Below are positions 6,286-11,021 of a stretch of DNA of 64,000 bases, piece by piece. Both the position numbers and the translations under genes were made by a program. The DNA lies in NCBI RefSeq assembly GCF_003815975.1, contig NZ_CP033932.1, positions 434,001 to 498,000 of the forward strand, written 5' to 3'. The notes beneath the pieces are model-generated. The model ran no database searches. It saw only the letters and a list, made by a program, of their open reading frames with translations, and was not told the DNA's origin. The DNA is from Chryseobacterium bernardetii. GTDB taxonomy: Bacteria; Bacteroidota; Bacteroidia; Flavobacteriales; Weeksellaceae. How positions within the stretch are numbered: the first letter of the stretch is position 1; each line of letters opens with the position of its first letter.

Positions 6286-7911
6286 ATGGCAAAAGAAATA
6301 AAATTCGATATCGAAGCAAGAGATGCTTTAAAAAGAGGTGTTGATGCATTAGCAAATGCAGTGAAAGTAACTTTAGGTCCTAAAGGAAGAAATGTGGTAA
6401 TCGAAAAATCTTTCGGTGCTCCACACGTAACTAAGGACGGGGTTTCTGTAGCAAAAGAAATCGAACTTGAAGATAAAGTAGAAAACATGGGAGCTCAAAT
6501 GGTAAAAGAAGTGGCTTCCAAAACTAATGATATCGCAGGAGACGGTACTACTACCGCTACTGTATTGGCACAGGCTATCGTAAGAGAAGGTCTTAAGAAC
6601 GTAGCTGCAGGTGCTAACCCAATGGATCTTAAAAGAGGTATAGACAAAGCAGTAACTGCTGTTGTTGCTAACCTTAAATCTCAATCTCAGGAGGTTGGAG
6701 ATTCTTCAGAAAAAATTAAACAGGTTGCTTCTATTTCTGCTAACAACGATGATACTATCGGTTCTTTAATCGCTGAAGCGTTCGGAAAAGTAGGTAAAGA
6801 AGGAGTAATCACTGTAGAAGAAGCTAAAGGTACTGATACAACGGTAGATGTTGTAGAAGGTATGCAGTTCGACAGAGGTTACCAGTCACCTTACTTCGTG
6901 ACTAACCCTGAGAAAATGTTAGCTGAACTAGAAAACCCATATATCCTTTTAGTAGAGAAGAAAATCTCTTCAATGAAAGAATTACTTCCGGTTCTTGAGC
7001 CAATTGCACAAGGTGGTAAGTCTTTATTAATTATCTCTGAAGAAGTTGAAGGAGAAGCTTTAGCTACTTTAGTGGTAAACAAACTAAGAGGTTCTCTTAA
7101 AATTGCTGCTGTAAAAGCTCCTGGATTCGGAGACAGAAGAAAAGCAATGTTAGAAGATATCGCGATCCTAACAGGTGGACAAGTAATTTCTGAGGAGCAA
7201 GGTTTCACTATGGAAAACATCTCTTTAGATATGCTTGGAACTGCTGAGAAAGTAACGATCGACAAAGACAACACAACTGTTGTAAACGGTGGTGGTGATG
7301 AAGCGAAAATCAAAGGAAGAGTAGCTCAGATCAAAGCTCAGATGGAAACTACAACTTCTGATTATGACAGAGAAAAACTTCAGGAAAGATTAGCTAAGTT
7401 AGCTGGTGGTGTTGCTGTACTTTACGTAGGAGCTGCTTCTGAAGTAGAAATGAAAGAGAAAAAAGACAGAGTTGATGATGCATTACACGCAACCAGAGCT
7501 GCTGTAGAAGAAGGTATTGTTGCAGGTGGTGGTGTTGCTTTAGTAAGAGCAATCTCTTCATTAAACGATCTTGCAGGAGACAACGCAGACGAAACTACAG
7601 GTATCAAAATCGTTAAGAGAGCTATCGAGGAGCCATTAAGACAAATCGTTGCTAACGCAGGTGGTGAAGGTTCTGTAATTGTTGCTAAAGTAGCGGAAGG
7701 AAACGGAGACTTCGGATACAACGCTAAAACTGACGAGTATGTTCAAATGCTTGAAGCAGGAATCATTGACCCAACTAAAGTAACAAGAGTTGCCCTTGAA
7801 AACGCAGCTTCTGTATCTGGAATGCTTCTTACAACTGAATGTGTAATCACTGAAGTGAAGAGCGCTGAACCAGCTATGCCAATGGGTGGTGGAATGCCAG
7901 GAATGATGTAG
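6286..7911 (+). CDS. groL: Chaperonin GroEL
   Basis: A 541-residue chaperonin. I chose the ATG at 6286 ([15 protein letters not shown]) because the 12 residues upstream in the open frame are not part of the family. Typical segments are seen: [25 protein letters not shown] (nucleotide site), and the C-terminal GGM tail [11 protein letters not shown]. With GroES it forms the ATP-driven double-ring folding chamber. Its final 55-225 bp are the source of the partial copies found at 9511, 10557 and 10844, between the downstream accessory genes. Confidence 0.98.
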
Positions 7912-7970
7912 TAGCGTAGGCTAAGACAATTTAATATACTAACCGTTCTACTTTTGTAGGACGGTTTTTT
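7747..7970 (+). repeat. Native groEL 3' end and 3'UTR (copy 1 of the tail repeat)
   Basis: This is the in-gene template to which the three downstream copies align: the last 55 codons of groEL, the TAG stop, a small hairpin (TAGC GTAG GCTA, 7911-7922 region), a linker containing TTTAATATACTAACCG, and the terminator stem. Copies 2, 3 and 4 start at different points within it but all end at the same terminator. Confidence 0.9.
7941..7970 (+). terminator. groEL terminator
   Basis: Stem AACCGTTCTAC/GTAGGACGGTT with one wobble pair, loop TTTT, then a run of six T. The same hairpin is present with changed but still pairing bases in the downstream tail copies. Confidence 0.9.
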
Positions 7971-8045
7971 GTTAGTTCTTCAAATTCTTCGTCTTTCGCC
8001 AATACCTTTTCCGTTAGGCGACACTATTTTAAAGCTACGATTAAC

Positions 8046-8082
8046 AAAAACCGCGAGATTTTAATTAAATCTCGCGGTTTTT
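8046..8082. terminator. Strong bidirectional hairpin between groEL and the Fic gene
   Basis: 16-bp perfect arms (AAAAACCGCGAGATTT and AAATCTCGCGGTTTTT) with a 5-nt loop and flanking A and T runs. It can end transcription in either direction. It may be the terminator of a gene lost from this spot, since groEL already has its own. Confidence 0.8.
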
Positions 8083-8116
8083 ACTTATCTTTAAATACTG
8101 TAATTTTCTTGAATAA

Positions 8117-9415
8117 ATGATTGAACAAGCACCTCAAATAGAAGAAACTAATCAAACAATACCACTGATGGTTAAGTTTCAGATGAATGGAACTCTACAA
8201 AAAATACAAGATGAGTATTTATATTGGGACAAAATAAAATATAAAGCAAAAGATTGTACACCATTGGAACTATGGAGTGCGGTAAAACTGTTTCGATTAT
8301 TGAGAAGAAAAGAAGTGAAATTTCATTTGTATAACTTTCATTATGTAATAACAGATTATATTCAAAAATCATTACATCAGTTTGATATGCATATTGGTGG
8401 AACATTGGGAAGTAATATAGGTATTGCAGAAACTGATAAAACGAAATTTATTATTAGTTCTATAATGGAAGAAGCTATTTCCAGTAGCCAAATGGAAGGA
8501 GCTAATACTACTAGGAAAAAGGCTAAAGAAATGATTCAGCAAGAGAAAAAGCCTAGAAATAAATCCGAGCAAATGATTTTGAACAATTTCATTACCATGA
8601 AACATATTGTTCAACATAAAAGTGAAGATCTGACTGTGGAAAATTTATTATATATACATAAATTAATAACAAATAACACATTAGAAGACACAGAAGATGA
8701 AGGTAAATTTAGAGATAATGACGATGTACATGTAGTAAATCATACTAATAGTGAAATTGTCCACACCCCACCTTTACAGTCAGACCTTAAAAAGCTTATA
8801 AGTGATTTGTGCATATTCTTTAATACTGATACTGAAGAATTTATCCATCCCATAATTAAAGGCTGTATTATTCATTTTATGATTGGATGGATACATCCTT
8901 TTACAGATGGAAATGGCCGTACTGCAAGAGCTGTATTTTATTGGTATATGCTTAAAAAAGGATACTGGCTCACAGAATATCTGTCTATATCAAGAATTAT
9001 CAAAGATACAAAGTCACAATACGAGAAAGCATATCTATACACTGAAATAGATGAAAATGATTTGACTTATTTCATTTCCTATCACATCAAAACAATGGAA
9101 AAAGCATTTGTTGCATTAAAAGACTACATCAATCGCAAACAAAAAGAAGTATTTCAAGCAGCAAAGTTTATGAAAATACCAGGAGTAAATGATAGAATGG
9201 CACAAATTTTAAAAATATTACACGATGATCCCGATAGAATTCTGAACACTAAAGAAATTCAATCAAGATTTAATGTATCAAATTATACAGCAAGAACAGA
9301 TCTAAAATCATTAGTTGAATTAGGCTTTTTAGAAATCATTCAAGTGAATAAACAAAAACAAAACTTTATAAAATCTTCTACTTTTGAAAGCTCATTAAAA
9401 AGATACAAATTATAA
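8117..9415 (+). CDS. Fic family protein (AMPylase-type) with C-terminal winged helix
   Basis: A 432-residue class II Fic protein. The N-terminal inhibitory motif S-S-Q-M-E-G lies at residues 123-128 (Glu127 is expected to block ATP binding), and the catalytic Fic loop HPFTDGNGRTAR starts at His260. The C-terminal 80 residues form a predicted winged helix (KEIQSRFNVSNYTARTDL). Fic enzymes transfer AMP or other nucleotides to hydroxyl side chains; members with this fusion act as regulators or toxins. The gene is much more AT-rich than groEL and sits alone between two groEL-tail copies, which suggests acquisition. An ATG at 8117 fits the family start. Confidence 0.92.
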   Translation: MIEQAPQIEETNQTIPLMVKFQMNGTLQKIQDEYLYWDKIKYKAKDCTPLELWSAVKLFRLLRRKEVKFHLYNFHYVITDYIQKSLHQFDMHIGGTLGSNIGIAETDKTKFIISSIMEEAISSSQMEGANTTRKKAKEMIQQEKKPRNKSEQMILNNFITMKHIVQHKSEDLTVENLLYIHKLITNNTLEDTEDEGKFRDNDDVHVVNHTNSEIVHTPPLQSDLKKLISDLCIFFNTDTEEFIHPIIKGCIIHFMIGWIHPFTDGNGRTARAVFYWYMLKKGYWLTEYLSISRIIKDTKSQYEKAYLYTEIDENDLTYFISYHIKTMEKAFVALKDYINRKQKEVFQAAKFMKIPGVNDRMAQILKILHDDPDRILNTKEIQSRFNVSNYTARTDLKSLVELGFLEIIQVNKQKQNFIKSSTFESSLKRYKL

Positions 9416-9510
9416 TATACCGTCGCCTTTGATGAAAAGTAAAATTATCAATACTCTTTTTCATTTAAACAACCACCCACTAAACTAAATTCCTCTTTTC
9501 TCCGCAAGTC

Positions 9511-10543: not shown

Positions 10544-10556
10544 AGCATATATAAAC

Positions 10557-10760
10557 ATGCTTGAAAGCAGAAATATTGCCCCAACTAAAAACGCAGCTTC
10601 TGTATCTGGAATGCTTTTAACAACTGAATGTGTAATCACTGAAGTAAAGAGCGCTGAACCAGCTATGCCAATGGGTGGTGGAATGCCAGGAATGATGTAA
10701 CAGCGTGTCGCTGAGACAATTTAATATACTAACCGCTCTGCTTTTGTAGAGCGGTTTTTT
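10557..10760 (+). pseudogene. groEL tail copy 3 (47-codon open fragment with 3'UTR and terminator)
   Basis: Aligned to 7747-7970. It opens with ATGCTTGAA and reads in frame as a 47-residue C-terminal GroEL peptide ending [11 protein letters not shown], but lacks about 20 bp of groEL (the VTRVALE segment). The stop is TAA in place of TAG. The small 3'UTR hairpin has changed on both arms (CAGCG TGT CGCTG), and so has the terminator stem (AACCGCTCTGC/GTAGAGCGGTT); pairing is kept. It looks like the tail of a related but different groEL allele. Translation is possible but no start signal is evident. Confidence 0.9.
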
Positions 10761-10797
10761 AATCTGTAAATTTTAAGACAAAGGTACCTGGATTGGC

Positions 10798-10830
10798 ATC
10801 CTTGTCAAGGTTTAAAACCTTGACAAGGAT
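10798..10830. repeat. Perfect 16-bp palindromic repeat
   Basis: ATCCTTGTCAAGGTTT and AAACCTTGACAAGGAT flank a single A. It sits in the 83-bp gap between groEL tail copies 3 and 4. It resembles REP-like intergenic palindromes and has no T run of its own, so it is not a typical terminator. Confidence 0.85.
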
Positions 10831-10843
10831 CTGCTGAAATATA

Positions 10844-11021
10844 CTTGAAAACGCAACTTCTGTATCTGAAATACTTCTTACTACTGAATATGTAATTACT
10901 GAAGTGAAGAGAGCGCTGAGCCAGCTTGCCAATGGGTGGTGCAATGCCGGGAATGATGTAGTAGCGTAAGCTAAGACAAATTTAATATACTAACCGTTCT
11001 GATTTTTGTGGAGCGGTTTTT
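10844..11021 (+). pseudogene. groEL tail copy 4 (degenerate)
   Basis: Aligned to about 7795-7970 from CTTGAAAACGC onward. It carries many substitutions and small indels (for example GAGAGCGCTGAG, CAGCTTGCC) that break the reading frame, yet keeps the stop TAG, the hairpin TAGC GTAA GCTA, the linker TTTAATATACTAACCG and a pairing terminator stem (10992-11020). It is the most diverged copy and the farthest from groEL, which fits it being the oldest insertion. Confidence 0.88.

Follow-up and report, generated by a model that had tools for sequence, protein, structure and literature searches.

Truncated copies of the groEL 3' end mark out an array of accessory genes behind groEL in Chryseobacterium

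Background

How does an essential gene come to stand at the head of a row of unrelated accessory genes that is interspersed with pieces of its own 3' end? The question is raised by a stretch of 64,000 nucleotides from Chryseobacterium bernardetii (contig NZ_CP033932.1, positions 434,001 to 498,000; hereafter the window, to which all coordinates refer unless another locus is named), in which three partial repeats of the groEL 3' end lie downstream of the intact gene. These displaced tails lie on the same strand as groEL and end at a common terminator, and each starts at a different point within groEL. The original prediction, made from the letters of the window, had described the three copies and read the locus as a recombination hotspot that admits DNA carrying its own groEL tail. 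Positions, shared terminator and differing starts were all found again and this core inference stands, while the interpretation as a whole is partly supported. What we add to it is mainly the unit itself, a gene plus a tail, with a junction between the two that is specific to the gene family.

We consider it likely that the locus is a cassette array without a nearby integrase, in which cassettes are born by illegitimate joining within groEL and spread by homologous exchange. We also incline, if only slightly, to the wider reading that an essential housekeeping gene lends its 3' end as the shared recombination arm to a genus-wide pool of mobile cassettes, integron-like but lacking an integrase of its own, with each gain re-forming GroEL and leaving a new arm behind.

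Results and discussion

A search with the groEL tail gave matches in 171 of 173 Chryseobacterium genomes, at least two in 102 and at least three in 54, placement at the groEL locus having been checked for part of the matches. From 99 other genomes we fetched 100 regions, picked from the search matches and hence biased towards good ones, which together with the window make 101 loci (below, L denotes loci, G genomes and c gene families or clusters). With weak hits counted, a profile of the native tail finds one tail in 19 of these loci, two in 29, three in 21 and four to nine in the rest; single-tail loci number 23 at a cut-off of 20 bits and 32 at 60 bits, and no score on the minus strand exceeded 15.4 bits. 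Comparison of gene content across the genus, which had been proposed as a check on the hotspot reading, thus reveals empty and alternative states in abundance. When each genome's own tail was used as the query, coding tails were found downstream of groEL in 70 of 102 loci of the genus (three of the 102 being second copies of genomes already included), in none of 20 loci from other genera of the family and in none of 68 from other Bacteroidota, and reversed queries returned no tails; one genus locus and seven others too short for the test are left out of these counts, as are L095, which is without groEL, and L173, which is labelled Chryseobacterium but has a GroEL of 81% identity and was set aside (no tails). 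Short repeats of the terminator only occur in 4 of the 20 loci from other genera of the family.

Repetition centers on groEL. A repeat scan recovered 116 repeats of the groEL 3' end in 68 of the 100 fetched loci, against 7 hits in 6 of the 100 for other downstream genes (c5, c13 and others) and none in 443 kb upstream of groEL in the genus loci. Outside the genus, 1.45 Mb of other Bacteroidota (75 loci) gave a single repeat, and only L233 among the 20 family loci gave any, namely three attC-like ones. Because a few 3' ends of other genes are repeated, the process is perhaps not strictly bound to groEL, with groEL dominant. In L113, L129, L085, L115, L065 and L087, 3' ends or fragments of c13, c5 and c21 recur behind inserted genes. 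The genome of C. bernardetii holds four groEL-tail matches in total, every one at this locus, and a scan of the window for 3'-end copies (open reading frames of at least 90 amino acids, copies of 50 to 420 nucleotides, up to 8 kb downstream) returned the three copies of groEL and those of no other gene.

The tails close units that mostly hold a single gene. Between consecutive tails of at least 20 bits there are 186 intervals, 128 of which hold exactly one open reading frame of at least 70 amino acids, and in 169 of the 174 gene-bearing intervals the longest gene is in groEL orientation, with the tail at its 3' end. The same gene families reappear in different genomes beside different neighbours. 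Among all families with tails of at least 60 bits, tail starts agree within 5 nucleotides in 45 of 98 same-family pairs; in 2000 shuffles such agreement was seen in 7.9 pairs on average and never in more than 17. The junction of c87 lies at position 121 of the tail model, 43 nucleotides after the stop codon, in all four cases; that of c33 at 106-111 (5/5), that of c76 at 41 (4/5) and that of c99 at 42-43 (3/3). Because many families have such a fixed junction into the tail, we take the unit to be gene plus tail. The remaining same-family pairs disagree, and c26 (at least two junction classes), c62 and c50 each have several junctions, the result either of subsequent decay or of independent captures. 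A unit of this kind also seems to have formed from a multi-gene module that ends in c5: its junction is identical in L082 and L126, although their tails are weak (31 and 38 bits). A cassette usually opens with promoter-like sequence directly after the preceding terminator. The tails are short, 144 of 145 keeping fewer than 250 nucleotides of groEL coding sequence and none 300 or more, although 900 nucleotides were searched.

The gene's stop codon and the tail start lie close together (median 42 nucleotides, at most 75 in 91 of 126 cases), and in c33 and c29 the stop codon sits at the groEL junction itself. Both observations would also suit tails that are retained for a selected function, as strong terminators or stabilisers of the mRNA, with recombination a by-product. 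Such a function leaves unexplained why groEL tails so dominate the repeats (116 hits against 7) and why cassettes show the transfer pattern described next, and we regard it as decidedly improbable.

The genes of family c87 are 99.4 to 99.6% identical in DNA in three species pairs whose groEL genes, over their first 700 nucleotides, are 88 to 91% identical. The family occurs in 5 of 171 genomes, its sole location in each being about 200 nucleotides downstream of a groEL 3' end. In G028 it follows a displaced tail of a second array instead of groEL itself, so that entry at the groEL end, as originally proposed, holds as the core reading but not in every instance. This second array (contig C4, loci L095 and L096) shares a contig with groEL at a distance of about 46 kb, an arrangement suggestive of one array broken apart by a large insertion or rearrangement. 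The block of near identity around c87 starts at the terminator and stops about 13 to 70 nucleotides into the next tail, depending on the pair; the flanks on either side show species-level divergence, and the right border differs among the four aligned genomes. Of the 164 same-family pairs over all families, 40 show higher identity in the cassette gene than in groEL. Ordinary DNA recombination appears to be what carries units of gene plus tail from one species to another.

Integron cassettes are mostly single-gene units in one orientation, with a recombining element at the 3' end; they stand in an array behind a fixed anchor and are reshuffled between species. The formal resemblance of the groEL array, with its single-gene units in one orientation, one 3' element each and a fixed anchor, is strong. 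One may therefore ask whether an integron-like enzyme encoded elsewhere in the genome acts on the hairpin of the groEL terminator or on the tail, so that gene plus tail moves as gene plus attC does. Not only the make-up of the units but also the sharp drop in cassette identity at the terminator would agree with site-specific recombination, and a locus from a sister genus (L233:6225-18542, genome G298) carries a tyrosine recombinase directly after groEL (NF040815, 219.8 bits at a cut-off of 220; integron integrase model TIGR02249, 199 bits at a cut-off of 265). Behind it stand genes with intervening repeats that reach about 160 nucleotides, an integron-like array at the same address whose repeat ends we take to be attC-like. 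Within Chryseobacterium, however, neither tyrosine recombinases (PF00589) nor serine recombinases (PF00239) occur within 50 kb of the array in any of 20 genomes, even though they are present elsewhere in 20 and 18 of them, respectively, which bears out the earlier statement that no integrase is visible. Unlike in an integron, the repeated element is truncated groEL coding sequence plus a terminator, and its junction differs among cassette families, falling into at least two classes in c26 alone; the right border of the c87 block likewise varies among four genomes. We consider a site-specific enzyme unlikely.

Other carriers of mobility were sought as well. A search of the 20 genomes for one transposase family, PF01609 (DDE_Tnp_1), placed the nearest match in G100, about 39 kb past the last tail listed, and the strongest 25 Pfam families of 78 cassette representatives include no transposase or recombinase. 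A plasmid or phage vector was considered and rejected: similarity was confined to plain groEL, Fic, AbiJ and hydrolase genes, viral contigs held no c87 relative and no tail pattern, plasmids held no c87 unit, and with the queries used no groEL-tail unit was found in plasmids, phages or viral contigs.

If recombination imports cassettes together with their tails, the question becomes whose groEL the tails derive from. The 106 displaced tails compared have a median distance of 0.120 to the native groEL of their own genome, against 0.118 between random congeners, and the own gene is the closest of 100 natives for 10 of the 106 (median rank 17). For 97 of 109 displaced tails the nearest tail is found in another genome, although other genomes also supply most candidates; in the comparison of tails that had been proposed earlier, they scatter among the groEL genes of other species and do not group with each other. 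Both outcomes that had been named beforehand as refuting the hotspot reading are therefore absent. Relative to the nearest native gene, displaced tails (n = 125) differ at 5.2, 4.3 and 12.3% of first, second and third codon positions, and native genes at 0.9, 0.6 and 10.7%. From this excess at third positions, most tails appear to derive from functional groEL genes of other lineages and to have decayed afterwards.

These data bear on local duplication, in which the genome's own groEL end would be copied by slippage or template switching, genes captured between the copies, and the array inherited vertically with losses. Native gene and tails do share one terminator, and the tail of the Fic cassette in the window has its own groEL as the nearest native (distance 0.029). 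The rarity of such cases (10 of 106), the identity of c87 far above that of groEL and the third-position excess all speak against it, and we assign it a very low probability. Copies that all stop at the terminator but start at varying points also resemble truncated retrocopies, that is, 5'-truncated reverse transcripts of groEL mRNA inserted downstream. Many last tails, however, run past the terminator into the native flank (model ends 324-328), and with tails of foreign groEL origin and junctions tied to cassette families we give an RNA intermediate practically no credence.

The preferred reading, illegitimate birth followed by homologous spread, can be set out in steps. At birth, one end of the incoming donor DNA would pair with groEL, while its other end would be joined illegitimately, at a microhomology of a few bases, within the last 250 nucleotides of the recipient's groEL. 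The donor would bring a complete new groEL 3' end and the recipient's tail would be displaced behind the new gene; GroEL would stay functional because the donor supplies the whole 3' end. In keeping with the earlier claim that the C-terminus is restored at each insertion, all 99 native GroELs read share one C-terminus (a count that leaves out L095 and L093, the latter with groEL broken in an assembly that is 75% complete). Spread, the well-supported part, would follow as the tails on both sides of a cassette act as homology arms for its gain or swap in a congener. Compared with tail-less relatives in the fetched regions, c33 switches to groEL at TAA, with about 3 nucleotides common to both partners, and c29 at TAAC, with 4 (neither set against a chance expectation), so the stop codon sits at the joint; the same comparison for c26 was uninformative. 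The c33 and c29 junctions fit illegitimate joining at microhomology combined with a homologous groEL anchor.

Continued exchange would also leave its mark within the tails. The first 45 nucleotides after the junction differ at 9.0, 6.2 and 16.4% of the three codon positions and the last 90 coding nucleotides at 3.2, 3.3 and 10.0%, a weaker distal decay that is expected if the distal part of the tail keeps recombining with live groEL. In groEL itself the phylogenetic signal drops, unevenly, towards the 3' end, its correlation with the first 600 nucleotides going from 0.65 to 0.32 (Spearman). A grouping of tails by cassette family was sought and rejected, a tail of the same family being the nearest neighbour for 0 of 109, and because tails do not group by family, it seems that capture is followed by their renewal. 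A family signal is present in the junction position and in the cassette.

Riemerella belongs to the same family as Chryseobacterium. It is naturally competent, and homologues of transformation proteins are reported in Chryseobacterium (PMC8459023). Our genome encodes a ComEC homologue, and donor DNA probably enters by natural transformation.

Several results weigh against the proposed mechanism. For 124 of the 164 same-family pairs, identity in the cassette gene does not exceed that in groEL, and for this reason most pairs alone are no proof of transfer. Among 26 pairs that share a cassette at 94% identity or more, the upstream tail stays near the background of random species up to the terminator (distances of 0.80, 1.00 and 0.83 relative to random natives in the last three bins of 22 columns), and the right tail is on average at background from its first 20 nucleotides on (1.16, 0.86 and 1.39), whereas simple double crossovers should leave longer donor tracts than those observed. 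The edges of the cassettes are sharper than simple homologous exchange predicts. Nor does random illegitimate joining account for the limit of 250 nucleotides; possible causes of this limit and of the missing donor tracts are mismatch repair between diverged arms and the loss of long repeats. Microhomology is readable in two families only, c33 and c29; competence is documented for Riemerella and putative in Chryseobacterium; and the average likeness of same-family tails does not exceed that of random native tails. Finally, stacking predicts that age increases along the array. Within the window divergence does rise with distance from groEL, as had been noted earlier, but across the genus we had to discard such an age gradient, the median distance to the own groEL being flat over array positions 1 to 4 (0.117, 0.125, 0.119 and 0.121) and higher only in the few tails at positions 5 and 6 (0.138 and 0.143; n = 6). 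Stacked modules are found in L121 and L126.

A number of known systems share parts of this behaviour. The minimal mobile elements of Neisseria have no mobility gene; transformation and homologous recombination swap the genes that lie between a pair of fixed core genes. Exchange between conserved flanks may be common to both systems: the c87 block is confined between tails in species whose flanks have diverged, but donor tracts in the tails are on average nearly absent. The duplicated tails of the groEL array, unlike a minimal mobile element, allow several units to accumulate. Genomic islands in gene 3' ends, for example those of tRNA genes, restore the gene end with incoming DNA and displace the old one, as proposed here, but do so with an integrase and a fixed crossover, whereas the groEL junctions are spread over the last 250 nucleotides. 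The closest published mechanism we found is sequential displacement in the effector/immunity arrays of the type VI secretion system of V. cholerae (Kirchberger 2017, PMC5361080), for which that paper describes an upstream homologous anchor, a proposed homology-facilitated illegitimate joining downstream, a shift of older genes to the back and one example in which the 3' end of a displaced effector gene is left behind. As presented there, the variable effector is replaced and immunity genes accumulate, while in the groEL array an essential anchor is restored every time, units of unrelated cargo are marked by its tail, and these spread across the genus. Hotspots lacking mobile elements, with high gene turnover beside core genes and homologous recombination at the flank (Oliveira 2017, PMC5635113), are similar in setting; the abstract of that report mentions no duplicated core-gene end such as the groEL array has. 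We found no description of a groEL-tail locus in the portions of open-access PMC papers that were searched.

In the window, groEL (6286-7911, plus strand, as are all features below unless stated; its open reading frame starts MAKEIKFD) is the recipient and anchor of the array, and the repeated segment is its native 3' end with the terminator (7747-7977). The genes between and behind the tails had been named as Fic, alpha/beta hydrolase, ATPase and AbiJ, correctly so by their Pfam and PADLOC matches. The first cassette holds a SoFic-like gene of the Fic family (8117-9415; PF02661, 1.6e-18; PADLOC SoFic, 3e-47) and is closed by the first displaced tail (9511-9612), which is 98% identical to the native end. 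The only other close relatives of the Fic gene in 171 genomes (G138:C96:28501-29796 and G096:C3:18923-20212) are 66-67% identical and do not lie on the groEL contig. An alpha/beta hydrolase of family c13 (9656-10543; PF12146, 8e-12), a family present in 23 of the 101 loci with or without a tail, forms the second cassette. Its tail (10588-10760, 92.5% identity, with a degraded extension back to about 10557) starts at model position 69-70, as in L068 and L093, and has its own groEL at rank 33 of 100 natives. Directly after this groEL terminator follows a spacer (10770-10843) with the palindromic repeat CCTTGTCAAGGTTTAAAACCTTGACAAGG (10780-10838); similar sequence stands behind the groEL terminators of several other arrays. 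The third tail, last and degraded (10844-11021, 89% identity), precedes a terminal, defence-like module of two genes, an AAA ATPase (11064-12410; PADLOC PDC-S59, 7e-29) and a protein with an AbiJ N-terminal domain, AbiJ_NTD4 (12500-13351; PF18863, 2.1e-34; PDC-S32, 2.6e-114). The module is bordered on the right by a helix-turn-helix regulator of cluster c6 on the minus strand (13525-13758; PF01381, 9.3e-10), with a conserved protein of unknown function, cluster c5, in the right flank (14036-14560; no Pfam match); c6 and c5 are each present in 49 of the 101 loci.

The start of the flank behind the last tail is marked by a leader. The sequence TATGGTTTYCCGTAAGGAAATA stands directly after the terminator and before unrelated genes in many loci (e.g. 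L116, L133 and L131). As a dispersed element of the C. bernardetii genome the palindromic leader GGTTTYCCGTAAGGAA was rejected, its 19 matches, against 13 in the control, being mostly due to chance. Of the leader's matches in the fetched loci, 96 of 128 on the plus strand and 0 of 19 on the minus strand closely follow a tail, and because of this clustering we regard it as a feature of the locus. Cassettes of c64, c99, c150 and c29 begin with a version of the leader, as if each had once been the first gene of a flank module.

The second module, behind the last tail, is highly variable and abounds in defence-like genes. The first genes behind the last tail in 97 loci (among them some cassette genes, including four hydrolases) together match 293 PADLOC models at 1e-5, models being counted here and not loci; these include NsnA/B, AbiLi, Gabija-like and HEC-01 models, and the Pfam domains GmrSD and SIR2 are also present. 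The 78 cassette representatives match 122 models, none common to more than two members. In a Pfam scan of 19 cassette representatives (c5, a flank gene, was left out) 10 had no match; named domains include SLATT_5, Fic, leucine-rich repeats, Shedu and an APH-fold phosphotransferase. Many cassette products, judged by eye, start like secreted, lipo- or membrane proteins.

Conclusions

As groEL is used as a typing marker, it matters that in Chryseobacterium its 3' end is probably partly horizontal. Many genes of the cassette pool are unstudied, and the terminal module offers plenty of defence-like ones. Many variable chromosomal hotspots carry no visible mobile element (PMC5635113), and how such hotspots grow is an open question. 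The groEL locus gives a hotspot of this kind a readable history: because each gene keeps its junction and a piece of the donor's groEL, donors and breakpoints can be measured in some 170 species. The locus further illustrates how repeated insertion at its end can be tolerated by an essential gene.

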